This document shows positions 75-48,654 of a stretch of 48,654 nucleotides of DNA, piece by piece; the stretch's first letter is position 1; each line of letters starts with the position of its first letter. The notes below the pieces were generated by a model. The model was not told where the DNA came from. It made no database searches and saw only the letters and a list, made by a program, of their open reading frames with translations. A program made the translations under genes and the position numbers. Source of the stretch: a virus. The stretch covers positions 1 through 48,654 of the IMG/VR virus record IMGVR_UViG_3300045020_000027. The stretch is one strand, 5' to 3'.

Positions 75-90
75 TCGAACAGCCGTTCGA
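75..90. promoter_or_regulatory. Perfect mycobacterial SOS (LexA) box 1
   Basis: The sequence TCGAAC-AGCC-GTTCGA is an exact match to the mycobacterial LexA operator TCGAAC-N4-GTTCGA. It lies 76 bases upstream of the terminase small subunit gene and 38 bp centre-to-centre from a second perfect copy. The motif is seen directly; LexA binding is inferred. Confidence 0.8.
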
Positions 91-104
91 TTTAATACGT
101 ACAG

Positions 105-132
105 TTGTTCGGTCGAACGGCCGTTCGATTAT
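105..132 (+). promoter_or_regulatory. Candidate late promoter upstream of terminase
   Basis: A -35-like TTGTTC (105-110) and a -10-like GATTAT (127-132) are separated by 16 bp, with SOS box 2 inside. Transcription would start near base 139 and give a leader of about 27 nt carrying the ribosome site AAGGAG (156-161), 4 nt before the ATG at 166. Both hexamers are imperfect, so the exact start is uncertain. Direct repeats of GTTCAATA (43-50, 59-66) lie further upstream. Confidence 0.5.
113..128. promoter_or_regulatory. Perfect mycobacterial SOS (LexA) box 2
   Basis: TCGAACGGCCGTTCGA is a fully palindromic 16-mer and again an exact match to TCGAAC-N4-GTTCGA. It fills the spacer between a candidate -35 (TTGTTC, 105-110) and -10 (GATTAT, 127-132), so bound LexA would be expected to block RNA polymerase. 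Confidence 0.82.
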
Positions 133-165
133 GCATTATTCACGGTTTATGCATTAAGGAGCCCG

Positions 166-16567: not shown

Positions 16568-19563
16568 CCTATCCGATCACCCCTAATCCGGGTATCCACA
16601 ACGCCCCGGCGCAGTCGAACTTTGCGACAGGGCAAGGGGCCGCCGCCCAACTAGAGGCGTGGGCTAAGCAGTTGCCGCTGGCGATGACGCTGGATCTGAT
16701 CAACGTCATCCTCCAGGCACTCGGGCTCGGTGCCTACACAGGCCCGGTCGATGGCATCCTGACGGCGTTGAGCACCGCACTGACCGGACGCTTTCAGGCC
16801 CTCGGCGTCCTGTTGGAGGCGGTGTGGACTGCGATCACCACCGACTACAACGACTGGCCGCTGCTGATCGCCGCCCTCGAGGCGGCGTGGAAAGCCTACG
16901 TCTTAGAGGTCACCGAACTCGACGAAGCCGAGATCGTCACCCTCATTGAGATCATCGGCGCCCTTCTGGGTTTCAGTCCGCAGGAAATCCAAAGGCTGAT
17001 CGCAGATTTCGATGCCCTTGAAGCGGACAGCGAAGCCAAGGCGGCGGCGTTCACACTACTGCTTCAGACATGGTGGACGGACATCACCACCGACTATGCC
17101 GACTGGCCGGTGCTGATTGCGGCGATGGAGGCCGCATGGAAAACGTATATCACCACGATCAGCGACATCGACGAGTCTGAAGTCCTCACCCTTGAGGACA
17201 TTGTCGGCGCGCTTCTGGGTATCAGCGCCCAGAATTTACAGGAACTGAACAACGATTTCGCTGATCTACAAGAGGATTCGACGCTGCGGTCGGCTGCGTT
17301 TACCACACTGTTTCAAACAGTGTGGACGGACATCACCACCGAATCGGGCTCGACACTGCTAGCCAGCCTTGAAGCTGCGTGGAACACCTACATCAGCACG
17401 GTAACCACCATTAGCAGCGGCGAGGTCGCCACCCTCGAAGACATCGCCGCCGCGATATTCGGGGTGCCACCGGCCAACGTCGCCGCCGTGTACAACGACG
17501 TCGTCGGATTCCTTACCACTGGTTCATGGACGGACCTGTCCGGCGCGTGGGATGACCTGAAACAGGGCATATTCGGCAACGCCACCAACACTTCGGCCAT
17601 CGGGAACATCTCGGCCGCTTCGGTCACCAATGTGGCGAACAGTATTCAGCCGGTGCCTGATTTCCCGTACGCGCAGTCCATTCAGGCCGCGAGCACATGG
17701 TCGTGGGACGGCACCGTAGGACACACGGCGGTAGGGTCGGCCAAGGTTATCGCCAACGGCACCGAGCAGGTTCTGCGCGGCGTGGTGGGCGACGTCCAGG
17801 CGGCCCAGGTCATCACCGCGACCGCCTACGTCCAATGGAGTGGGCTGACAGCGACCGGCTCTCCGATTCAGCTGCAGCTGTTGCCGAACACGGGAACTCC
17901 GGTGGTTATCGGTGAGATAACGTCGCCGGGTTCGAGCGGTTCGTGGACAGAACTCACCGGTACCTACACCGTTCCCTCTAGTGGCGTGACGACGGTTCAG
18001 ATTCTGCTGGTGGTAACCTCGGCTGCGACGGCCGGGTCTATCTGGTTTGACGACTGCACCGACGACGCCTCGGGCGGATTTCTACCCACCCTATCGGCTG
18101 ATTTCACCGCGCTACAAACGGATTACAACGCGAAAGCCGCCGCGCTCACTACCTTCCTGACCGCGGTATGGACCGATGTCACCACCGACACCCCCGGCAA
18201 TCTCGGCTCTGGATGGTGGACGACGCTGATCGCCAACCTGGAATCGGCGTGGCACACCTATGTCTCCACCATCTCGTCAATCAACAGCTCCGAGATTGTG
18301 ACGCTGGAGAATATCGTCGGCTCGATTCTGGGGCTGTCTCCTGCGACGCTGCAAACACTGAATACCGACTTCGGTATCCTGCAAACCGATTTCACCGCCG
18401 GTAACACCGCATTCGCGACGCTGCTGTCAACGGCATGGACGGTCATTGAGGACGATCTCGGCAACTGGTTGGCGCTGATCTCCGGGCTAGAGGGCGCGTG
18501 GGATACCTACGTGACCACGGTATCTGCGCTGACGAGTGGCGAGTTCGCCACCTTGCGGCAGATCATCAACGCGCTACTGGGCATCAACACCACGACCGGT
18601 CAGATGCCGACATCGAACATCGGCAGCGGACTGGGTCTGGCCAGCCTTGAGCAGGATCTTGCGAACTTCTGGGACAACCTGTTCGGTGTCGGCAACTCGC
18701 CGACGACCGCTCCTGTCGCCGCGACGGCGCTGCCAACGATCAACATCGGCGGCGTGCTGGACACCATTGAGAACCACATCCAGGCGATCGTCGACCATTC
18801 CATTCAGGCACTGACTGGCGGGTCGTCTACCAATAATCCGACCTCGGCGATGTATTCGAACCTGACGGCGATACCCGCCGGAAATATCGTCGGCTCACTC
18901 AGCGGAACATCAGTCGCCTTCGGCGCCACGGGCGGCGGTAGTAGTAACTACCAGCTGTCCGGCGCAACAGTAACGGCGAGTTGGTCGCATACCATCGCCA
19001 CAGGTGACAACTACGTTGTTGTCGCGGTGAACTTTTACACCACGAAGGTGTTCGCCAACGTGGTCTACGCGGCCACCTACGGTGGCGCCTCCATGGCGAG
19101 CCTCGGCGTCGTTGAATACAACAGCGGTTTCTGCGGTATCGCGTTGTTCGGATTAGCGGCACCGGCATCGGGCTCAAAGTCGGTGGTAATCAGCGTCTCC
19201 GGTGGTGTCGGTACAGCGATTGCTATCGCGGGAAACTCGGTGTCGTATAGCGGTTGGAGTTCCACTAGTGCCGCCACGACGGCCAGTGGCGCCCAAAGTA
19301 CCAGCGTCGCGCTGACGGTGGCCTCCCAGACCGGTGATGCGGTAGTTCAGGTGTTCGGTCTGGCCGGCTCAGGCTCGGCCGCCCTATCCAGCTACAACGG
19401 GACTACCCGCTGGAATGAGGGCACCGTATCCGAGGGTGATGCCATCACGATGGTCATGGGGGACGCGGAGGGCGCATCCTCGGTGGTATTCGATGCGACC
19501 GCAAGCTCGCCGTCCACTCAGGTGTGGGGCTCCATCGCGGTTAGTTTGAAGCCGGCTACCTAA
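16564..19563 (+). CDS. 999-residue modular minor tail protein
   Basis: The N-terminal third and the middle contain five helical modules of about 70-85 residues. Each has a W-D/T-xITTD element, an LxxxLEAAWxTYxxxx element, E-xxTLExIxxALLG and a LxxDFxxLxxD element. Three come in a row (about 16806-17480); a carbohydrate-binding-like beta-sandwich follows (WSWDGTVGHTAVGSAK.., about 17690-18080), then two more modules (about 18140-18590). The C-terminus (18940-19560) is a Ser/Gly-rich beta domain with TYGGASMASLG and AGNSVSY, related to the protein at 24046. Likely a tail stalk with binding domains. Confidence 0.82.
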   Translation: MTYPITPNPGIHNAPAQSNFATGQGAAAQLEAWAKQLPLAMTLDLINVILQALGLGAYTGPVDGILTALSTALTGRFQALGVLLEAVWTAITTDYNDWPLLIAALEAAWKAYVLEVTELDEAEIVTLIEIIGALLGFSPQEIQRLIADFDALEADSEAKAAAFTLLLQTWWTDITTDYADWPVLIAAMEAAWKTYITTISDIDESEVLTLEDIVGALLGISAQNLQELNNDFADLQEDSTLRSAAFTTLFQTVWTDITTESGSTLLASLEAAWNTYISTVTTISSGEVATLEDIAAAIFGVPPANVAAVYNDVVGFLTTGSWTDLSGAWDDLKQGIFGNATNTSAIGNISAASVTNVANSIQPVPDFPYAQSIQAASTWSWDGTVGHTAVGSAKVIANGTEQVLRGVVGDVQAAQVITATAYVQWSGLTATGSPIQLQLLPNTGTPVVIGEITSPGSSGSWTELTGTYTVPSSGVTTVQILLVVTSAATAGSIWFDDCTDDASGGFLPTLSADFTALQTDYNAKAAALTTFLTAVWTDVTTDTPGNLGSGWWTTLIANLESAWHTYVSTISSINSSEIVTLENIVGSILGLSPATLQTLNTDFGILQTDFTAGNTAFATLLSTAWTVIEDDLGNWLALISGLEGAWDTYVTTVSALTSGEFATLRQIINALLGINTTTGQMPTSNIGSGLGLASLEQDLANFWDNLFGVGNSPTTAPVAATALPTINIGGVLDTIENHIQAIVDHSIQALTGGSSTNNPTSAMYSNLTAIPAGNIVGSLSGTSVAFGATGGGSSNYQLSGATVTASWSHTIATGDNYVVVAVNFYTTKVFANVVYAATYGGASMASLGVVEYNSGFCGIALFGLAAPASGSKSVVISVSGGVGTAIAIAGNSVSYSGWSSTSAATTASGAQSTSVALTVASQTGDAVVQVFGLAGSGSAALSSYNGTTRWNEGTVSEGDAITMVMGDAEGASSVVFDATASSPSTQVWGSIAVSLKPAT

Positions 19564-21113
19564 TGGCCCTGCAGGTTACCGGCTGGTGGGCAGATCCGCG
19601 AGCCGGTGCGGTGCTGACGGTCGGCGCAGAGTTCGACGCGATCATAGCCAACGCTTTCGGGCATGGCGCCGCCAAGACGGTGGCGCCCACATTCAGCGCC
19701 GCACTGGGCCATGTCACGAAGATATCTGCAGCGGCAACGGTTGCGCCGCTGTTCTACGCGGACAGCCTGGAGCGCAACGCATCCGCCGCACTGACGGTGA
19801 CGCCGACCGCATCGGCTACTTTACAGAACTTCAAACTCATCGCCGCCAGCACGGTCACGCCAACCTTCTCTACGGCAGTGCAGAACTCGTATCACACCAT
19901 CGGTGCTGGACTGGTTGTGTATATGGCCCATGCCACCGGAGTATCCATTTCGTTCGGCGCCGCGCTGACAGTGACGCCGACGTTTACGCCCGACGTGAAG
20001 TTCCCGCAGGTGACTGCCGCCAAGACCGTCACCCCGGTATCGGCTGCGGCACTTCTCCAGACGGCCCATGCGACTGCCACCAAGACTGTCACACCAACGT
20101 TCGCTGTAGCCGTGAAGCGCAGCATGACTGCCACCAAGACCGTTACCCCAACGTTCGCGACGACCTCCACGAAGGTCACCGCCGGACTATCCGCGGCCAA
20201 GACGGTCACACCCACGCGATCGGCGCACGTTGCCGCAAACCAACACGGCCCGCTGGTAGCGACACCGCAGTTTTCCACCGCCCTCAAGCTCACCGCGGAT
20301 ATCCACGCCGCGCCTACGGTTACGCCGTCCTTCGCGGCCGGCTTCACCGGGGCGACGACTGCCACCAAGACTGTCACACCAACGTTCGCTGCGGCAGTGA
20401 AGCGCAGCATGACTGCCACCAAGACTGTCACACCAACGTTCGCCGCAGCGGCGGCGCGCACGGTAACCGCATCAGTAACGGCCACGCCGATACTCGCTGC
20501 GGCCATCAACACATTAGCTACCGTCGTTTACGTTTCGGACATTGGCGACGCGAAAGTCATTTCACTGTCCAGCGGAACCCAAAGCACCCTGGGATTCACG
20601 GGATTGAATAGCCCAGCCGGCGTCGCGGTGGACTCGTCAGGGAACGTCTACGTAGCCGACAGCGGCAACGCCGCCGTGTACAAACTGTCCAGCGGAACCC
20701 AAAGCACCCTGGGATTCACGGGATTGAGCAATCCCTTTGGCGTCGCGGTGGACTCGTCAGGGAACGTCTACGTAGCCGACAGCGGCAACGCCGCCGTGTA
20801 CAAACTGTCCAGCGGAACCCAAAGCACCCTGGGGTTCATCGGATTGGATAGCCCAGCCGGCGTCGCGGTGGACTCGTCAGGGAACGTCTACGTAGCCGAC
20901 AGTCTCGGCGCCGCTGTATACAAACTGTCCGGCGGCACCCAAAGCACCGTTGGATTCACCGGATTGGGCAGCCCCATCGGTGTCGCGGTGGACTCGGGAG
21001 ACGTCTACGTGGCCGACATTTTCCGCGACGCCGTGTACAAACTGTCCGGCGGAACCCAAAGCACCCTGGGATTCATCGGCCTATCCGAACCGGCCGCAGT
21101 GGCCATCCGATGA
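19563..21113 (+). CDS. Tail fibre protein with TVTPTF repeats and NHL propeller
   Basis: This 516-residue protein has two halves. Residues 30-320 hold about a dozen strand repeats around TVTPTF, spaced 17-21 residues. Residues 322-516 are NHL repeats (SPAGVAVDSSGNVYVADSGN.., 40 residues each): four complete copies plus an N-terminal partial and a C-terminal strand SEPAAVAIR that together would close a five-bladed propeller. The blades resemble the sensor domain of mycobacterial kinase PknD. The propeller likely binds a host surface ligand. Confidence 0.82.
   Translation: MALQVTGWWADPRAGAVLTVGAEFDAIIANAFGHGAAKTVAPTFSAALGHVTKISAAATVAPLFYADSLERNASAALTVTPTASATLQNFKLIAASTVTPTFSTAVQNSYHTIGAGLVVYMAHATGVSISFGAALTVTPTFTPDVKFPQVTAAKTVTPVSAAALLQTAHATATKTVTPTFAVAVKRSMTATKTVTPTFATTSTKVTAGLSAAKTVTPTRSAHVAANQHGPLVATPQFSTALKLTADIHAAPTVTPSFAAGFTGATTATKTVTPTFAAAVKRSMTATKTVTPTFAAAAARTVTASVTATPILAAAINTLATVVYVSDIGDAKVISLSSGTQSTLGFTGLNSPAGVAVDSSGNVYVADSGNAAVYKLSSGTQSTLGFTGLSNPFGVAVDSSGNVYVADSGNAAVYKLSSGTQSTLGFIGLDSPAGVAVDSSGNVYVADSLGAAVYKLSGGTQSTVGFTGLGSPIGVAVDSGDVYVADIFRDAVYKLSGGTQSTLGFIGLSEPAAVAIR
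20567..21090 (+). repeat. 120-bp tandem repeats encoding NHL blades
   Basis: The coding DNA repeats with a period of exactly 120 bp. Bases 20641-20700 and 20761-20820 are identical, and the flanking 60-bp blocks differ at few positions; later copies (20881 on) diverge, and the last one is 3 bases shorter. High DNA identity points to recent unequal recombination. Confidence 0.92.
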
Positions 21114-21999: not shown

Positions 22000-23523
22000 A
22001 TGACTTGCGCCTCGGTCACCGTCTGCCCAGGGATTAGCTCGGTCACCGTCTACCCTGGTGTCAGTTCGGTCACCGTCTGCCCAGGGATTAGCTCGGTCAC
22101 CGTCTACCCTGGCAGCCTCGTGGTGGTAACGGCGCAGGATACTATCGGCTCTACCCTCGTCGTCGCTCCGAATATGGTTGCCGGGGTGTCCGTTACGGGC
22201 GGCCACCTGATTGCCGCGCTGGCGGTCACTCCTGGTCTCGCGTCGGCACTCAAGCGCACTGGGCATCTTGGGGCATCGCTCACTGTCACGCCGACGTTCT
22301 CGGTCGCCTTCGCCGAGACTCTGCACTTCGCAGCGTCCGCAAATGTCACGCCGACGTTCGCTGCGCACGTGACCGCCGATGTCCACGCATCGCGTACTGT
22401 CACGCCCACGTTCGCGACGGCCTTCACGAAGACGCTTCATATCGTCGCGTCAAAGACTGTCACGCCCACGTTCGCCGGGCACGTGACCGCTGATGTGCAC
22501 GCTGCCCCAACGGTTACCCCCGCATTCGCCGCGGGCCTCACCAAGACGCTGCATATCACCGCATCCGCAACGGCGACACCGACGTTCGCTGCGATGGTGA
22601 ACCCGAGGGCGGTAAACGCGGCTAAGACCGTCACGCCAACGTTCGCGGCGCACGTCACCGCTGACGCGCATGCGTCGCTTACCGTCACACCCACATTCAG
22701 TGCGATGGTGAAACTCAGGGCGGTGACCGCTTCCCCAACGGTTACCCCCACGTTCAGTGCGCATATGACCGCCGACCTGCACGCCACTCCGACGGTTACC
22801 CCGACGTTCTCGACGGCGTTCACCAAGACTCTTCACGTCACGGCGTCGGCGACCGTCACGCCCACATTCAGTGCGATGGTGAAACTCAGGGCGATCACGT
22901 CGGCGCCAACGGTCACGCCAACGTTCAGCGCTGGCGTGACGGCCGATGTGCATGCCACTCCGACCGTCACCCCAACGTTCGCGACGGCGTTTACCAAGAC
23001 GCTCCACATCAGCTCGGCGAAGACCGTCACCCCGACGCCCTCCGCGAACCTTTCCGCCGATGTGCACGCATCGCCTACTGTCACACCAACGTTCGCGACA
23101 GGCTTCACCAAGACGCTGCACGTCGCAGCGTCCGCAACGGTAACACCCACATTCAGTGCGATGGTGAAACTCAGGGCGGTGACCGCTTCCCCAACGGTTA
23201 CCCCCACGTTCGCTGCGAACGTGACTGCCGATGTGCACGCATCTCCCACGGTTACACCCACGTTTGCGACGGCGTTCACCAAGACCCTGCACATCACGGC
23301 GGCACCGACGGTCACGCCAACGTTCAATGCCCACGTCACCGCCGATATCCATGCCACGGCCACCGTCACCCCGTCCTTTGTGACGGCGTTCACCAAAACG
23401 CTGCACATCGCGGCAAGCTCGACCGTCACACCGACGTTCGCGACAACGTTCACGAAGACCGTGGCCGCGAAACCCCGGCCACAACAGGTCAACGTCGCGG
23501 TCACCCGCACGGCAACCCACTAA
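22000..23523 (+). CDS. Repetitive fibre protein with 21 VTPTF units
   Basis: This 507-residue protein starts (AAGGGG ribosome site) with four short SSVTVxPG repeats, then a 50-residue linker, then 21 repeats of 18-20 residues, each opening with TVTPTF or a near variant and closing with HVTADVHA, AFTKTLHI or MVKLRAVT. The types alternate in a semi-regular order. Alternating strand-turn repeats are typical of trimeric fibrous shafts. Threonines next to Pro in every unit would be good O-glycan acceptors, and a glycosyltransferase fusion lies 1.6 kb downstream. The same repeat occurs at 19563-20520. Confidence 0.8.
   Translation: MTCASVTVCPGISSVTVYPGVSSVTVCPGISSVTVYPGSLVVVTAQDTIGSTLVVAPNMVAGVSVTGGHLIAALAVTPGLASALKRTGHLGASLTVTPTFSVAFAETLHFAASANVTPTFAAHVTADVHASRTVTPTFATAFTKTLHIVASKTVTPTFAGHVTADVHAAPTVTPAFAAGLTKTLHITASATATPTFAAMVNPRAVNAAKTVTPTFAAHVTADAHASLTVTPTFSAMVKLRAVTASPTVTPTFSAHMTADLHATPTVTPTFSTAFTKTLHVTASATVTPTFSAMVKLRAITSAPTVTPTFSAGVTADVHATPTVTPTFATAFTKTLHISSAKTVTPTPSANLSADVHASPTVTPTFATGFTKTLHVAASATVTPTFSAMVKLRAVTASPTVTPTFAANVTADVHASPTVTPTFATAFTKTLHITAAPTVTPTFNAHVTADIHATATVTPSFVTAFTKTLHIAASSTVTPTFATTFTKTVAAKPRPQQVNVAVTRTATH
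22015..22112 (+). repeat. Short direct repeats at fibre gene start
   Basis: The block CTCGGTCACCGTCTGCCCAG and its variant with CTACCCTGG alternate, giving four tandem copies of SSVTV(C/Y)PG. Two of them are nearly identical at the DNA level with a period of about 51 bp. Confidence 0.85.
22270..23460 (+). repeat. Degenerate 54-60 bp repeats (VTPTF array)
   Basis: Twenty-one units around ACNGTNACNCCNACNTTC follow each other; neighbouring copies show longer identities, for example the segment coding for MVKLRAVTASP occurs twice almost unchanged (about 22706 and 23161). This array could vary in length by recombination. Confidence 0.85.
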
Positions 23524-25108: not shown

Positions 25109-26689
25109 ATGAAGGCGTACTGGTGGCGCGGTGACGACGGTCCAAAGGGGCCGAAAACAAACAACTTCGGTGACAGGATTACGGCATACGTCCTGAATCA
25201 GCTCGGCCTGACAAACGAGTGGGCCGAGCCCGAGGACGCCGAACTGATCCTGGTCGGCTCCATCCTCGAACAGCTGCCACATGATTGGAGCGGCACCATC
25301 TGCGGCGCCGGAAAGCTGCACGAGCGATCGCGCATACACCTCTCCGATGCTCGCGTGTTCGCGCTACGCGGCAAGCTGACACTGGCCGGCGTCACAGGGC
25401 TCGGCGGCCAGAAGCCCGTACTAGGTGACCCCGGCCTACTGGTGTCGCATTGGGTGCGTCAGCCAGTTGCCAAGTACGACTTGGGCGTTGTTCCACATTG
25501 GAGCGACAAGGAACTCGCGGGCCGCTACTCCTACGGGCATGTCATCGACCCGACGCAGACGGTTCAGAAGGTCGTCGAAGAAATCGCGGCGTGTAAGCGC
25601 ATCGTGTCATCGAGCCTGCACGGCTGCATCGTCGCCGACGCCTTTGGGATACCCCGCCGCGCCGAAATGCCCTCCACCCCGGCGTCTGCCGACAAGCTAC
25701 TGCCGCACGAAGACTCGAAGAATGGCGGCGACTTCAAGTTCCGCGACTACGCCAGCGTGTTTGACGGCGACCCGCACTTCGGCGAAATGTGGCTAGCCCC
25801 ACGACATCGCGTCGAAGAGATCCAGCGCGACCTATTCAACGCCATCACCACCGCTACAGGTATAGACCTAAGCACCGAGAACCGGCGCCACCCTCAGGTA
25901 AGCATGCTTGTTCCGTTCCGCGACGACGGCGAACACCGCAGCGTGGTCTGGAACTGGCTGCGCCGGTATTGGCGCGCAACCTTTCCCGAGGCCGAGATCA
26001 TCCAAGGGACCGATCATGGCACCCCGTTCAGCAAGGCCGTCGCAGTCAACCACGCCGCATCGCTGGCCAGGGGGCGCACCTTCGTCGTCATCGACGCCGA
26101 CGCCTACCTGCCGGCCGCAGTACTGAAGGGTTGCGCCAACGACATCGACCTGGCGCTGAGCAAGAAGCAGCGCGAGTGGTTCATCCCGTATAACGAGCTG
26201 TTCCGCCTCAGTGAGGCATACACGATGGACCTGCTCGAAACGTCACCGACTACACCAATCCCGCTGCCACCGCCGATGAGCGATGTCGAGGTAATGCCGC
26301 CGGGCGCATCCGGTTACGGCCACACGTACGGCGCGATGTGCCAGGTGATGCCACGCGAGGCGTTCGGCCTTGTTCACGGCATGGACCCCCGCTTTCGTGG
26401 CTGGGGCGGCGAAGATCAAAGTTTCCTGCGCGCCCTGGACACGCTCTACACGCAGCACAAGGTTGTCCCCGGCGATATCGCGCACTTCTGGCACGCCCGT
26501 ATCGGCCGCGTCGACAGCGGTATGACGCGCCGCTGGATCGGCCAGTCATGGAGCGCCGCCAACTCGCGGCTGTCCCAACGGTATGCACAAGCTGTTGCTG
26601 AGCCGTCGGCTATGCGCGGGCTCGCCAATGAGCATCCGCTCGGCTGGACTTCAGACCTCGTGCAGACCGCCGACGGCGACTCGGTCTGA
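25109..26689 (+). CDS. Bifunctional pyruvyltransferase-glycosyltransferase
   Basis: A 526-residue fusion. Residues 1-245 look like a polysaccharide pyruvyl transferase: NNFGDRITAYVLNQLG near 18-33, GAGK at 66-69, FALRGKLT and LGDPGLL (105-111), VVPHW (127-131) and the signature IVSSSLHGCIVADAFG (165-180). Residues 262-500 are a GT-A glycosyltransferase: VSMLVPFRDD, the metal-binding DAD (329-331) in FVVIDADAYLP, and GWGGEDQSF (431-439), as in the C-terminal part of galactosyl/GalNAc transferases. AGAGGGACAC precedes the ATG. No membrane segments. Likely adds a pyruvylated sugar to a virion protein. Confidence 0.8.
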   Translation: MKAYWWRGDDGPKGPKTNNFGDRITAYVLNQLGLTNEWAEPEDAELILVGSILEQLPHDWSGTICGAGKLHERSRIHLSDARVFALRGKLTLAGVTGLGGQKPVLGDPGLLVSHWVRQPVAKYDLGVVPHWSDKELAGRYSYGHVIDPTQTVQKVVEEIAACKRIVSSSLHGCIVADAFGIPRRAEMPSTPASADKLLPHEDSKNGGDFKFRDYASVFDGDPHFGEMWLAPRHRVEEIQRDLFNAITTATGIDLSTENRRHPQVSMLVPFRDDGEHRSVVWNWLRRYWRATFPEAEIIQGTDHGTPFSKAVAVNHAASLARGRTFVVIDADAYLPAAVLKGCANDIDLALSKKQREWFIPYNELFRLSEAYTMDLLETSPTTPIPLPPPMSDVEVMPPGASGYGHTYGAMCQVMPREAFGLVHGMDPRFRGWGGEDQSFLRALDTLYTQHKVVPGDIAHFWHARIGRVDSGMTRRWIGQSWSAANSRLSQRYAQAVAEPSAMRGLANEHPLGWTSDLVQTADGDSV

Positions 26690-35787: not shown

Positions 35788-36153
35788 TCAGTCCCGCCAC
35801 CACGCCCTGTCTGAGCACAGCGCGTTCACCGCATCGTGCTCGGCCTGCATGGTCTGCGTGTAGGACAAGCCTGCCGCAAGAAACTCGCCGTTGGGTTTCC
35901 AGATCGCAAACCCGCTAGCGACATAGCCCTGCGCCATCGCGTCACACGTGTCATGGCCGGCATCGATCAGTGCCTGCGGATCGCCGGTGATGCCGTGACG
36001 GGAAAGCGCGGCAAGGTAGGTGTCGTCGGGCGTGGAAGCGTGCGCGCGGGCGCTGCCGAGTAGCGCGCCCGTGGCCATCGCACCCACAGCCATGAGCCAC
36101 AGGCACCACTTGACAGCGTCAATGCGTTTTGGTGAACCCGCAGGTCGTGTCAT
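35788..36153 (-). CDS. DUF732-type secreted protein
   Basis: A 121-residue protein with a signal peptide (basic N-terminus, hydrophobic CLWLMAVGAMATGALLG, cleavage near ARAHA-STPDD) and a domain of the mycobacterial DUF732 type: DDTYLAALSRHGI, then LIDAGHDTCDAMAQG with the paired Cys (C at DTCD and near the end, NALC). DUF732 proteins are common in mycobacteria and their prophages. Start at ATG 36153, GTG 36156 or a TTG further up is possible. It lies directly beside attP, as a possible lysogenic gene. Confidence 0.82.
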   Translation of the reverse strand: MTRPAGSPKRIDAVKWCLWLMAVGAMATGALLGSARAHASTPDDTYLAALSRHGITGDPQALIDAGHDTCDAMAQGYVASGFAIWKPNGEFLAAGLSYTQTMQAEHDAVNALCSDRAWWRD

Positions 36154-36194
36154 CACTTTTCGTGCCCTCAATTCTGCTTACGCCCTTGTGTTTA

Positions 36195-36330: not shown

Positions 36331-36489
36331 ATGGCCGAGAACTACGGGCCGCCGTGGTGGACAGACGAGAAGCGCGCCGAGGTGAAGGCGTACTTCGATT
36401 CGACTGAGATGTGCGACTACTGCTGTCAGCGCGTGCCTAAGACTGAGATCGCGGCCGGGCTACACGCGCACCCGGCGGTCATGGACTGA
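36331..36489 (+). CDS. Zinc-finger-like protein before integrase (52 residues)
   Basis: MAENYGPPWWTDEKRAEVKA.. then CDYCCQRVPKTEIAAGLHAHPAVMD: CxxCC followed by HxH makes a plausible zinc site. It ends in TGATG with the integrase start, so the two are translationally coupled. It might act in recombination directionality or be unrelated. GGGGCGAG precedes the ATG. Confidence 0.65.
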   Translation: MAENYGPPWWTDEKRAEVKAYFDSTEMCDYCCQRVPKTEIAAGLHAHPAVMD

Positions 36490-37613
36490 TGGCCTCGATC
36501 CGTCAGCGACCGCGCGGCAACGGCACCATCTGCTATTCGGTGCTCTACACCATCGACAAGCGCCAGTCGTCGCTGCCGTTCGATGACCCGCGCGCCGCAC
36601 AGGCGTTCAAAGCAGCGGTGGAAGTCCACGGCGCCGAACGCGCGCTCACCATGCACGGCATCGACCCCGCGCCGCGCCGCAAACAGGCCGAGGCGCTCAC
36701 CGTCGCGCAATGGGTGCGCCATCACATCGACCACCTGACCGGCGTCGAGCAATACACCCTCGACGTCTACGAGCGGTACCTGGCCAACGACATAGGCCCA
36801 TTCCTCGGCGACATCCCGCTGGCCGAACTCGCCGAGGAAGACATCGCCCGCTGGGTCAAGCACCTCGAAGTAACGCCGCGCGCCAAGACCGGCCGCGTCC
36901 CCAGGCCGAAGACGATCGCCAACATGCACGGCTTCCTATCCGGCGCACTCTCGGCCGCCGTGCCGAAGCACATACCTGCCAATGTCGCGGCCGGCCGAAC
37001 GCTACCGCGCAAAACCGGCGACGGTGACGACGGTGACGACGATGAGATCCGCACGCTGTCACGTGACGAATACGACCGCCTGCTGGCGGCTGGGACCGTT
37101 CCGTACTGGCACACGCTGATCGAGTTCCTGGTCAGTTCAGGTGCCCGCTGGGGCGAAGTCGTAGGACTCAAACCCGGCGATGTCGACCGCGCCGCGGGCA
37201 CCGTTCGGATACGCCGGGCGTGGAAGCACAGCAGCAAGGGCTACACGCTCGGGCCGACGAAGACTAAGCGGTCGAACCGTAAGATCAACGTGGCGGCCGA
37301 CGTCCTCGACCAGCTCGACTACTCGCACGAGTGGCTGTTCACGAACACGCGCGGCGGCCCTGTGCGCTACCACTCATTCAAGGGCAACGTGTGGGACTGC
37401 GCCGTCACCAAGTCGAAACTAGACCCCCAGCCCCGTATCCACGATCTGCGGCACACCTGCGCCTCGTGGATGCTGGCCGCCGGTGTCCCGCTCACCACTG
37501 TGTCGCGGCACCTAGGCCACGAGAATATTCAGATCACCGCTGATGTCTATACCGATGTCGACCGGACATCATTCGCGCTGGCGGCTGAGGCCATGCGGAA
37601 GCTGCTCAGTTGA
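36489..37613 (+). CDS. int: Tyrosine integrase
   Basis: A 374-residue tyrosine recombinase. Residues 1-65 form an arm-binding N-domain, 70-165 a SAM-like core-binding domain, 185-374 the catalytic domain. Active-site residues: R220 in SSGARWGEV, a Lys in the GPTKTKRSNRK turn, H318/R321 in IHDLRHTCASW, H344 in HLGHENIQ, and the nucleophile Y354 in ADVYTDVD. It integrates the phage at the tRNA/tmRNA copy at 36229. All five key residues are present, so it should be active. Confidence 0.93.
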   Translation: MASIRQRPRGNGTICYSVLYTIDKRQSSLPFDDPRAAQAFKAAVEVHGAERALTMHGIDPAPRRKQAEALTVAQWVRHHIDHLTGVEQYTLDVYERYLANDIGPFLGDIPLAELAEEDIARWVKHLEVTPRAKTGRVPRPKTIANMHGFLSGALSAAVPKHIPANVAAGRTLPRKTGDGDDGDDDEIRTLSRDEYDRLLAAGTVPYWHTLIEFLVSSGARWGEVVGLKPGDVDRAAGTVRIRRAWKHSSKGYTLGPTKTKRSNRKINVAADVLDQLDYSHEWLFTNTRGGPVRYHSFKGNVWDCAVTKSKLDPQPRIHDLRHTCASWMLAAGVPLTTVSRHLGHENIQITADVYTDVDRTSFALAAEAMRKLLS

Positions 37614-37791: not shown

Positions 37792-38073
37792 ATGGACGCT
37801 GGGCTACATGAAATATGCGCAAGAGTCGCCGTGGCGCTCGACATCGTTCCCGATGGGACCGAAGACGACATACGCGCGCACCTGGAATGGGTAGCGCGCG
37901 AGATGATTACACATCTCCCGCCGGACAGACTCACCAACCAGGAGCTGGCCGCGCTGATCGCCGTCCTACAGGCAGCGCATGCTCGGACGCTAGTTACGCC
38001 AGTCGGGGGGAGGCCACTCCTGCGACTCGCCACCACGCTGGAGTCGCCGGAAATCGGCCAGCCTGTCTGCTAG
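37792..38073 (+). CDS. Small helical protein overlapping repressor 3' end
   Basis: A 93-residue acidic protein, MDAGLHEICARVAVALDIVPDGTEDDIRAHLEWVAREM.., with a well-formed helical pattern (DRLTNQELAALIAVLQAAHA). Its last 28 codons overlap the end of the leftward repressor gene. The overlap makes one of the two ends doubtful, or they are antagonistic antisense genes. Function unknown; possibly a lysogeny regulator. Confidence 0.55.
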   Translation: MDAGLHEICARVAVALDIVPDGTEDDIRAHLEWVAREMITHLPPDRLTNQELAALIAVLQAAHARTLVTPVGGRPLLRLATTLESPEIGQPVC

Positions 38074-38376
38074 CTCCTTCATCAAGTCGCGGTCGGTGAC
38101 ATCGTGCATCGACCCGGCGAGCTCCACTGACGAAATCCCAGCTTCTTCGGGCTTGATGTAACCGGCATGGATCAGCGCCTCCACCGGGGCGCGGCCATAG
38201 GCTCTAGCGAACGCGACAACATGCTCGCCGCGCGGCTGAATACCCGTGTCTTTCCAGCGCCCGACGGTCGAGCTGGTTACGCCGATCTTGCCGGCGATGT
38301 CTTCCTGCTTGGCCCCGTGGGCGTGGCGCTGGACATACTCAATCCACGGCTCTATATCGCGGAGATGTTCAGTCAT
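37990..38376 (-). CDS. Immunity repressor (HTH)
   Basis: A 128-residue protein whose N-terminal half is a helix-turn-helix of the XRE type: YVQRHAHGAKQEDIAGKIGVTSSTVGRWKDTG.., then VVAFARAYGRAPVEALIHAGYI. The C-terminal half is helical and lacks the Ser-Lys pair of a LexA/CI autoprotease, so it cannot be cleaved like lambda CI as far as I can see. ATG 38376 has AGGG about 9 nt upstream. It is divergent from the Cro-like gene at 38604 with operator-like dyads in between. Confidence 0.82.
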   Translation of the reverse strand: MTEHLRDIEPWIEYVQRHAHGAKQEDIAGKIGVTSSTVGRWKDTGIQPRGEHVVAFARAYGRAPVEALIHAGYIKPEEAGISSVELAGSMHDVTDRDLMKELADRLADFRRLQRGGESQEWPPPDWRN

Positions 38377-38394
38377 AATGCGCAACCCTAGCGC

Positions 38395-38414
38395 GTAGAC
38401 GCAATTGACGCTAC
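38395..38414. promoter_or_regulatory. Imperfect palindrome near repressor start
   Basis: GTAG-ACG-CAATTG-ACG-CTAC, an imperfect 20-bp dyad, lies 19 bp upstream of the repressor start codon. It may be an autoregulatory operator. Confidence 0.45.
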
Positions 38415-38477
38415 CCGCAATTTAACAGGGAAACTAACGGTATGCCTGTTCACGCGCGTGCATAGGTAACCTATTCA

Positions 38478-38547
38478 TTGGTGTAGGCACCAACACGCCC
38501 TTGGTGTACGCACCATTGAACACGCCGCGCGATGGTGCTTGCGCACT
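38478..38547. promoter_or_regulatory. Operator-like repeats in immunity region
   Basis: TTGGTG-TAGG-CACCAA (38478-38493) is a perfect 6-4-6 dyad; TTGGTG-TACG-CACCAT (38501-38516) is a second copy 23 bp away; ATGGTG-CTTG-CGCACT (38532-38547) is a weak third. Their place between divergent repressor and Cro-like genes fits repressor operators. Confidence 0.65.
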
Positions 38548-38552
38548 CGATA

Positions 38553-38580
38553 GCGTTAACGTAAGTTGTCTACTTAACGC
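38553..38580. promoter_or_regulatory. GCGTTAA inverted repeat upstream of Cro-like gene
   Basis: GCGTTAA (38553-38559) and TTAACGC (38574-38580) are inverted around 14 bp. It overlaps the -10-like TAACGT (38557-38562), so it may be an operator for the rightward early promoter. Confidence 0.45.
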
Positions 38581-38603
38581 AATCACACCACATTTGGGGA
38601 CAC

Positions 38604-38861
38604 GTGTTGGCAACTCTTCGGCTTCGAAAAGATCAGCTCGACAGGCTTCGGCGCGTCACGAGAACAGTCGGCGGCGAGCTACTCACCGACAAGGAACTCG
38701 CCGCGCGCATCGGCATCCATCCGAGCAACCTGCACCGGGTTCTCGCGGGTAAAGCTGCCCCGGGCACCAAGTTCATCGCGGGCCTGCTCGACGTGTTCGG
38801 CATCGAATGGTTCGCCGACCTCTTTGAAATCCTGCCCGGCGATGAGGCGGCCGACGAATGA
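38604..38861 (+). CDS. Cro-like HTH protein
   Basis: An 85-residue protein, first rightward gene after the immunity operators. HTH: ELLTDKELAARIGIHPSNLHRVLAGKAAPGTKFIAGLLDVFG. Start GTG 38604 (TTG 38607 also possible) behind GGGGA. As the first early gene facing away from the repressor it likely plays the Cro or early regulator role. ATGA overlap with the next gene. Confidence 0.78.
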   Translation: MLATLRLRKDQLDRLRRVTRTVGGELLTDKELAARIGIHPSNLHRVLAGKAAPGTKFIAGLLDVFGIEWFADLFEILPGDEAADE

Positions 38862-46839: not shown

Positions 46840-47268
46840 ATGCCCGTTTGGGACGCCGATGGCACCACTAATGACCAGGTCGGCCTCGTGCTGGACTCCG
46901 CTGGCAAGCTCGGCGCACGCTTCGACTACCGCGGCCGTCGCCGACTCAACTCCGATGTCGCGCCCACCGTGGCCGCTGGCACCGCTGCTGGTACCTCTCC
47001 CACGATCAGCGTGGCTGGAACCGACGAGTTCGGCGTCGTGACCATCACCCTCGGCACCTCGCCGACCACCGGCACGCTGGCCACGGTTACTTTCGCGCAG
47101 GCATACGGCACCACGCCGATTTGTATTGGGGTCACCCAGAATGACACTGTTGCGGCGCTGCAGCTCTACGCCAACGCCACCACTACCGCGCTCACCATCG
47201 GCAACCACACAGCGTCACCGACCGCGGGCACGTACAAGATCTCGTACCAAATCGTTGGCGGCGCGTAG
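46840..47268 (+). CDS. Beta-rich protein, possibly virion structural (142 residues)
   Basis: MPVWDADGTTNDQVGLVLDSAGKLGARFDYRGRR.. is followed by a Thr/Ala-rich beta domain (TVAAGTAAGTSPTISVAGTDEFGVV..TLATVTFAQAYGTTPICIGV). It resembles tail-fibre or surface domains more than early proteins. GAGGAA lies upstream of the ATG. It overlaps the next GTG by 1 nt. Confidence 0.6.
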   Translation: MPVWDADGTTNDQVGLVLDSAGKLGARFDYRGRRRLNSDVAPTVAAGTAAGTSPTISVAGTDEFGVVTITLGTSPTTGTLATVTFAQAYGTTPICIGVTQNDTVAALQLYANATTTALTIGNHTASPTAGTYKISYQIVGGA

Positions 47269-47594
47269 TGAGTTCACCCTTTTACGCCTTCCCTAGCGAC
47301 GTCCCGCCTGTCGGATTCACGTCTGGCCAGGTGAGCGTTGGCACGACAGCGACACTGATCGGCACATTCGAAGGCACTCAAACCGGCGTGCTCATCAGCA
47401 ACCCGGCCGGGCAAACCGTGTATCTCGGCGGCAGTGGAGTCACGACATCCACGGGATTCCCGGTAGCGGCCAGCACGGTCCTGACCGTCCCCACTAACGG
47501 CGGCGTTGGCTGTCAGTTGTACGGCGTCGTCACTTCGAGCACGGCGACAGTCTCATATCTCCATCCCACCAACGGCGGCTACGCCAACCTGTAA
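47268..47594 (+). CDS. Beta-rich paralog 1 (108 residues)
   Basis: MSSPFYAFPSDVPPVGFTSGQV.. contains VYLGGSGVTTSTGFPVAASTVLTV, shared with the next gene. Likely a small virion surface or decoration protein. GTG start overlapping the stop of the previous gene. Confidence 0.62.
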   Translation: MSSPFYAFPSDVPPVGFTSGQVSVGTTATLIGTFEGTQTGVLISNPAGQTVYLGGSGVTTSTGFPVAASTVLTVPTNGGVGCQLYGVVTSSTATVSYLHPTNGGYANL

Positions 47595-47610: not shown

Positions 47611-48000
47611 ATGGCAGCGACATTCCCCGCCAATGGTGTTCAGAACTCGACCAACCCCGGTCTAGACCCCGCGGTTGTGCCAGTCACGGTCGCCACGGCC
47701 GTATCTGTGGCAAGCACCGCCGGCGGTACCAGCATTGTCACCATCCCCACAGACGGTGCCCCCGTGCTGCTGGTGAACACTGGCTCTAACACCGTGTTCC
47801 TGGGCCACAGTGGTGTTACCACCAGCACGGGCTACTCGCTAGCAGCGTCTGCTGCAGTGCTGGTCACCTACGGCCCACCGTCGCCCAACTACGGCGGCAC
47901 ATCACTTGCACTGTTCGGCATCACTGCATCGTCCACCAGCAACGTGGTTGCGTACAGCCCGACCAACTGGCCTGGCCTGGTCAACCCGGTGGATGTATAG
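47611..48000 (+). CDS. Beta-rich paralog 2 (129 residues)
   Basis: MAATFPANGVQNSTNPGLDP.. contains VFLGHSGVTTSTGYSLAASAAVLV, clearly related to the 108-residue neighbour. AGAGGAAAAC lies upstream of the ATG. Tandem duplication; role unknown but structural protein likely. Confidence 0.65.
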   Translation: MAATFPANGVQNSTNPGLDPAVVPVTVATAVSVASTAGGTSIVTIPTDGAPVLLVNTGSNTVFLGHSGVTTSTGYSLAASAAVLVTYGPPSPNYGGTSLALFGITASSTSNVVAYSPTNWPGLVNPVDV

Positions 48001-48005
48001 GCCAC

Positions 48006-48413
48006 ATGCTGTACGTGGTGACGGGTCCGCCAGCCGCCGGCAAGTCCACGTGGGTGCGTGAGCGTGCCAAGCATGGTGATATCACTGTCGACTTCGATGC
48101 ACTAGCTAGCACGCTTACGCCACCCGGCGAAAGCCATTTATATCCAGAGCATGTCAGAACCGTCGCCATGGCAGCACGCAACGCAGCCAAAGACACAGCA
48201 GTAGCAATGAGTCGACTGGTCGACGTCTACATCATCCACAGCACGCCAACTGCAAAGCAGCTTGGATGGTACGAACGCCAAGGCGCAGAGGTCATCACCA
48301 TTGATCCAGGTCAAGACGTTGTGCTTGAACGCTGCCGTACGCAGCGGCCTGCGCACATGGTTGAGGTCGCGCGGGATTGGTACGCCGACCGGGTATACAT
48401 CCCACTTGCATAA
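48006..48413 (+). CDS. P-loop kinase-like ATPase
   Basis: A 135-residue P-loop NTPase: MLYVVTGPPAAGKSTWVRERA with Walker A (GPPAAGKST), then ITVDFDALASTL and VDVYIIHSTPT as strand-rich parts, fitting polynucleotide kinase-like or AAA_33 proteins. It is the last gene before the right non-coding end. Function may be nucleic acid end repair; not proven. Confidence 0.75.
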   Translation: MLYVVTGPPAAGKSTWVRERAKHGDITVDFDALASTLTPPGESHLYPEHVRTVAMAARNAAKDTAVAMSRLVDVYIIHSTPTAKQLGWYERQGAEVITIDPGQDVVLERCRTQRPAHMVEVARDWYADRVYIPLA

Positions 48414-48444: not shown

Positions 48445-48460
48445 TCGAACACCTGATCGA
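48445..48460. promoter_or_regulatory. Near-perfect SOS box (one mismatch)
   Basis: TCGAAC-ACCT-GATCGA matches TCGAAC-N4-GTTCGA with one mismatch (11 of 12). Confidence 0.55.
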
Positions 48461-48467
48461 CCATCCT

Positions 48468-48483
48468 TAGTACACATGTTCGA
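48468..48483. promoter_or_regulatory. Degenerate SOS box (two mismatches)
   Basis: TAGTAC-ACAT-GTTCGA matches the SOS box at 10 of 12 positions; the right half is exact. Confidence 0.4.
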
Positions 48484-48495
48484 TATTGTGGCGGA

Positions 48496-48524
48496 TGGTC
48501 ACCATCGAACGTGTGTTTGTACAA
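48496..48524 (+). promoter_or_regulatory. Candidate right-end promoter
   Basis: TGGTCA (48496-48501), 17 bp, TACAAT (48519-48524). It points out of the window's right end; on a circular genome it would run through the joined ends towards the terminase gene. Confidence 0.5.
48505..48520. promoter_or_regulatory. Degenerate SOS box inside promoter spacer
   Basis: TCGAAC-GTGT-GTTTGT matches at 10 of 12 positions. It lies between the -35-like TGGTCA and the -10-like TACAAT, overlapping the latter by two bases. Confidence 0.45.
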
Positions 48525-48654
48525 TAGTGGGCTGATCTTGAATGACCATCCCAAAGCCGCAGCTCAGGGACTTGGAACTACATAGGGTATCTATAACCGC
48601 AGGTCAGAGGGCCAAGGGGGTCCTGAATCCCTCCGGCATCGACCCTGGTGCGAC

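Follow-up and report, generated by a model that had tools for sequence, protein, structure and literature searches.

To our knowledge, the timing of late genes in temperate actinobacteriophages and the sensing of DNA damage by those of their prophages whose repressor has no self-cleavage domain are largely unknown. In coliphage 186, the anti-repressor gene tum is under LexA control, and host LexA serves as the damage sensor of the phage. The closest precedent for the locus described here is the late promoter P3 of the Bacillus thuringiensis phage GIL01, which contains dinBox2 and dinBox3 and involves host LexA together with gp7 and gp6 (PMC6182141). At this capsid/lysis promoter, two boxes for host LexA follow the -35 element at a spacing of about two helical turns, and the promoter remains off until SOS. 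GIL01 does not integrate, has LexA acting on the early promoter as well, and possesses a LexA homologue of its own, gp6. In Streptomyces venezuelae, a LexA site was located 174 bp upstream of the prophage tail-fibre gene vnz_21525, whose induction by mitomycin C was 526-fold (PMC9380542). Searches of the open-access literature, with few subscription papers included, yielded no account of mycobacteriophage late genes under LexA control.

The locus belongs to an IMG/VR virus record of 48,654 nucleotides, which was analysed over its whole length and is referred to as the window. TerS, TerL and the portal protein are encoded at its left end, and an excisionase, a YqaJ exonuclease, a replication initiator and a WhiB protein are further gene products. 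The genes bordering the sites, and that of the integrase, are:

166-627, + strand: terS, terminase small subunit, first gene of the late operon (phrog_83 / PF05119)
587-2290, + strand: terL, terminase large subunit (phrog_9, PF03354, PF20441)
36489-37613, + strand: tyrosine integrase, as in a temperate phage (PF00589)
48006-48413, + strand: P-loop kinase/ATPase-like gene, the last one before the right-end array (phrog_4581; AAA_33 just under the cut-off)

The integrase shares 69% identity with a homologue from a Mycobacteriaceae MAG, and the deposited phages that match it best are mycobacteriophages. Judged from these similarities, the host of the phage is probably a Mycobacterium.

Sites resembling LexA operators were detected at both ends of the window. 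They were scored with a matrix for host LexA, which was derived from 17 LexA-type sites in the upstream regions of lexA and recA of five Mycobacterium-like genomes. The matrix contains no phage sequence, and its training sites were preselected at no more than two mismatches to the textbook consensus.

75-90, + strand: predicted LexA box R1, TCGAACAGCCGTTCGA, mismatch-free, matrix score 20.0, second in the genome
97-112, + strand: degenerate LexA-type site, ACGTACAGTTGTTCGG, three mismatches, matrix score 9.2
113-128, + strand: predicted LexA box R2, TCGAACGGCCGTTCGA, mismatch-free, matrix score 16.7
48445-48460, + strand: LexA-type site at the right end, TCGAACACCTGATCGA, one mismatch, matrix score 23.5, the highest in the genome
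48468-48483, + strand: LexA-type site at the right end, TAGTACACATGTTCGA, two mismatches, matrix score 17.0, 23 bp from the 48445 site
48505-48520, + strand: LexA-type site at the right end, TCGAACGTGTGTTTGT, two mismatches, matrix score 19.3, overlapping the -10-like TACAAT

The two mismatch-free TCGAAC-N4-GTTCGA boxes that the original prediction had placed before terS are present at 75-90 and 113-128. Together they span 54 bp, R2 ends 37 bp before the ATG of terS (166), and no other exact match exists in the whole 48,654-bp record. Under a first-order Markov model of the window, 0.006 exact matches are expected, while two were observed within 54 bp, and a chance origin of the perfect boxes was therefore ruled out. 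The description as a two-box arrangement proved incomplete, however. It omitted the degenerate site at 97-112, at distances of 22 bp to R1 and 16 bp to R2, a register found identically in the relatives L007 and L008, as well as the three right-end sites, all of which follow the last gene (ending at 48413) at the right end of the genome. Counted over the whole genome, there are two exact SOS boxes, and five strong LexA-type sites plus the degenerate one make up an array that flanks the genome ends (48445-48520, 75-128). In the right-end pair at 48445-48483, and in those of the relatives L011 and L012, the outer half-sites are perfect and the inner ones weak, resulting in a 39-bp near-palindrome.

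The phage sites fit the 16-bp dyad of actinobacterial LexA operators, tCGAAC-N4-GNNCGa / TCGAAC-N4-GTTCGA, of which the former is the ChIP consensus of S. venezuelae LexA (PMC9380542). The lexA-2 site of that species, TCGAACGTGTGTTT (PMC9380542), is identical to the initial 14 bases of the 48505 site, and TCGAACAGGTGTTCGG at the right end of the relative L118 is an exact copy of the recA box from one host genome. Among 48,654 bases, the five best matrix positions are 48445 (23.5), 75 (20.0), 48505 (19.3), 48468 (17.0) and 113 (16.7), and the sixth-best position in the window scores 12.9. The host sites used for training score from 17.5 to 25.4, a range that includes three of the phage sites, the values of 17.0 and 16.7 being just under it. 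The search for LexA and its box on the host side was also positive: LexA and RecA are encoded in all five candidate-host genomes, with boxes upstream of recA and lexA.

The arrangement of the sites has a chromosomal counterpart as well. The mycobacterial chiZ(Rv2719c)-lexA array is made up of tandem sites spaced 22-23 bp apart, in which a strong half is paired with a degenerate one. In the interval between host lexA and a divergent LysM (chiZ-type) gene, TCGCTCTTGTGTTCGA and TCGCTCAAGTGTTCGA are found 23 bp apart in L110, and TCGAACACACGAGCGA occurs twice in L109 at a distance of 22 bp. In the phage arrays, the spacing is mostly 21-23 bp and sometimes 16, and half-sites take the form of one perfect and one weak, exemplified by TCGCACAACCGTTCGA, TCGAACAACCGTGCGA, and TCGCTCTTTTGTTCGA. 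While the chromosomal array is located between divergent host genes, that of the phage precedes a late operon. The centres of the perfect boxes count against a LexA site, since they are G+C-rich (AGCC, GGCC), whereas A+T-rich centres are usual in the host.

Equivalent arrays were detected in the TerL relatives L005, L006, L007, L008, L009, L011, L012, and L118. Together with the window, these eight fall within one TerL clade of 11, which has a support of 100/100. Clade member L004 is uninformative, its contig beginning 30 bp before terS, and L010, which is placed on a long branch, is without array, so that, leaving L010 aside, all eight informative clade relatives carry the array. Upstream of terS in L010 (about 700-1160), CAGCAAACaCCAGCA-type repeats are found where the array would be; an exchange of operator sets might account for this. 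In G007, G008, and G017, which are near-complete relatives, the best matches are grouped to the left and right of cos, with scattered two-mismatch matches elsewhere. No comparable site pair was found in 62 other TerL-bearing loci (473 kb), nor an array at terS in the deposited Bernalvirus phages Bernal13 and Mendokysei (whole genomes) or in Lilac (both ends; cluster E), which ruled out the array as a general trait of the TerL family. Searches for nucleotide-level relatives among deposited phages and, via TerL, for prophage relatives in public genomes returned none. That the LexA-type arrays represent a real, conserved regulatory feature is well supported.

The ends of the window sequence look like physical (cos) ends, because the independent assemblies L118, L005, L006, L007, and L009 likewise begin with 65-79 bp ahead of the first main box. 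The contigs of L008, L011, and L012 continue through the genome-end junction. Sites flank the genome end in the window, L118, L012, L011, and L008, and the distance between the first right-hand site and the contig end is consistently 65-79 bp, L009 included, where an HNH gene is located between array and terS. Both observations would suit palindromes that are bound by the phage terminase (cosB-like) or by another packaging factor, their likeness to LexA operators being incidental. We regard this explanation as decidedly unlikely, since host recA and lexA sites alone predict the phage sites as the five best of the genome, so that their sequence is better explained by LexA, and since half-site degeneracy and spacing mirror the chromosomal chiZ-lexA array. 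Moreover, the distance of the left-hand sites to cos varies from about 100 to 250 bp, and L010 has a similar TerS (64%), yet no sites. The sites might also have a role at cos itself, where terminase could use them or LexA could hinder terminase.

Next to LexA, the phage's own regulators had to be considered as candidates for binding. The immunity region contains the following features:

37990-38376, - strand: immunity repressor, HTH only (phrog_5301, HTH_31; relatives annotated as immunity repressor)
38478-38493, + strand: putative operator of the phage repressor, TTGGTGTAGGCACCAA, a 16-bp palindrome
38501-38516, + strand: second putative operator of the phage repressor, TTGGTGTACGCACCAT, 23 bp from the first
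38604-38861, + strand: Cro-like HTH protein (PF01381, phrog_3642)

The palindrome pair at 38478-38516 has the form TTGGTG-N4-CACCAA, is positioned between the repressor and Cro-like genes, and is likely to constitute the operators of the phage repressor. No LexA-like site was detected in the immunity region (38386-38603). Because this region has its own operator pair and no LexA-like site, the array as a set of operators for the phage's own repressor was rejected as the most likely reading.

The repressor had been described as devoid of a self-cleavage domain, and this holds: searching the window and the near-complete relatives at E<=10 for an S24 peptidase domain gave no match. Nor did the window, G007, G008, G017, G001, and G002 yield a LexA DNA-binding domain (PF01726) at E<=10. 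With both domain searches empty, a phage-encoded LexA or self-cleaving repressor was discarded. More broadly, a phage regulator with LexA-like specificity could bind the array, either a truncated LexA homologue comparable to gp6 of GIL01 or an HTH or WhiB protein. The late promoter of GIL01 does use a phage LexA homologue (PMC6182141), and HTH, Cro-like and WhiB proteins are encoded in the window. Nevertheless, such a regulator appears unlikely in view of the absence of the LexA domain at the threshold given and of the different sequence, TTGGTG-N4-CACCAA, of the repressor's likely operators. WhiB proteins, moreover, are not known to bind such palindromes, which further counts against it.

In its tandem LexA-type boxes before terS and the late genes the locus resembles GIL01 P3, with a promoter that is predicted here. 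It differs by an integrase, a non-LexA repressor of its own with a separate operator, and sites on both sides of cos, and a LexA homologue was not found. Since a gp6-like LexA homologue is among the features not found, the array would only work like the GIL01 type and is not classed as one. With vnz_21525 it shares an actinobacterial LexA-type site upstream of a phage structural gene, but there a single degenerate site is present and here an array at cos/terS. In phage 186 it is an anti-repressor that LexA controls, whereas here LexA-type sites precede packaging genes.

The original prediction had also put R2 precisely in the gap between -35-like and -10-like hexamers. This geometry is unsupported, because a sigma-70 scan of positions 1-600 revealed no promoter and none of canonical type overlapping the left array; a canonical sigma-70 promoter around R2 was abandoned accordingly. 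A conserved promoter-like element is located upstream of the array instead, with a further copy at the right end:

43-51, + strand: putative -10-like element, conserved, GTTCAATAA (GTNNAATAR)
59-67, + strand: putative -10-like element, conserved, GTTCAATAG (GTNNAATAR), its first base 16 bp upstream of that of R1
48519-48527, + strand: -10-like element, GTACAATAG, with TACAAT at 48520-48525 and TGGTCA 18 bp upstream, kept in L012

On the + strand, GTNNAATAR has three copies genome-wide (43, 59, 48519), all in the array region, and in L118, L005, L007, and L008 it begins 16-17 bp before the first box. It may be a -10-like element that the array directly follows. TGGTCA-18-TACAAT at the right end is a plausible promoter with the 48505 site set into it.

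Taken together, it is likely that the sites are operators for host LexA, which hold the late operon off until LexA undergoes RecA-triggered self-cleavage. As the site clusters flank the genome ends and precede packaging and capsid genes, the late genes are probably locked until the SOS response of the host, or the replication of the phage, removes LexA. In the lysogen and in early infection, LexA dimers would occupy the tandem array on the promoter or the initial transcribed region of the late operon (terminase-capsid-tail-lysis) and block initiation or early elongation. A second promoter just left of cos would likewise be covered by LexA, leaving late transcription off, and the early genes would be controlled separately by the phage repressor at its different operator. 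RecA filaments on single-stranded DNA, resulting from damage or phage replication, would induce LexA self-cleavage, upon which the array would empty and the late genes be turned on. That LexA occupies the array, which promoters it covers, that it represses them and that it times late expression are inferences.

The proposal that host LexA represses the late operon, and that damage induces it directly, is thus retained in its first part: the sites match the LexA operator in sequence, half-site degeneracy, and spacing, and they are conserved before the late operon. Direct induction was over-stated, since the early switch is without LexA sites. Judged by sequence, LexA cleavage would free the late operon only, since the operator pair of the immunity region is of another kind and no LexA-like site is present there, and LexA release alone should be insufficient for full prophage induction. 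The separate operators suggest two locks, the phage repressor on the early genes and host LexA on the late genes. As loss of LexA alone would not start replication, either damage would free the early genes in some other way or LexA would act mainly as a timer, linking late expression to single-stranded DNA from phage replication. It is possible, though we put it forward tentatively, that in this clade host LexA is mainly a checkpoint of the lytic cycle and less a switch for prophage induction: the early genes would be freed otherwise, and late transcription, perhaps also access of terminase to cos, would be blocked by the arrays left and right of cos until enough single-stranded DNA from replication is present to activate RecA. 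If so, the DNA-damage sensor of the host would time virion assembly and DNA packaging.

Replication could also act through the number of sites. There are at least five LexA-type sites per genome, with a maximum of eight in L008, and these multiply as the phage replicates; the array might then be a sink that titrates LexA, turning on host SOS and late genes by copy number and not by damage. This appears highly improbable, as local repression alone accounts for the promoter-proximal position of the sites and their conservation. With the late operon probably under the host SOS repressor and the early switch on another operator, the clade makes the question of timing testable in a laboratory mycobacterium, and it suggests that SOS-inducing drugs could alter late expression in such phages.

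Tandem boxes are not restricted to this clade. Searching IMG/VR for pairs of perfect TCGAAC-N4-GTTCGA boxes yielded 44 stretches, none obviously ahead of a late operon. Two to five tandem perfect boxes are present in the unrelated viral contigs L018 (7105-7220), L019, L030, L032, L054, L029, L039, L043, L047, and L061, mostly not ahead of recognisable late genes.

Several other regions of the window deserve mention. The neighbouring frames 47268-47594 and 47611-48000 match no family and are kept beside the right-end array in relatives; they are probably paralogues, because they share their matching open frames in L012 and L011. The motif TCACACCRACGTTCGC repeats at 20089, 20374, 20428, 23081, and 23426 within the ORFs 19563-21113 and 22000-23523, which are probably repeat-bearing tail genes. 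Between tail and lysis genes, the ORF 25109-26689 shows matches to polysaccharide pyruvyl transferase and galactosyltransferase domains and could specify a glycan-modifying protein. Finally, a protein with DUF732, a family known from mycobacteria, is encoded beside the integrase (35788-36171, - strand) and is a possible lysogenic-conversion gene product.
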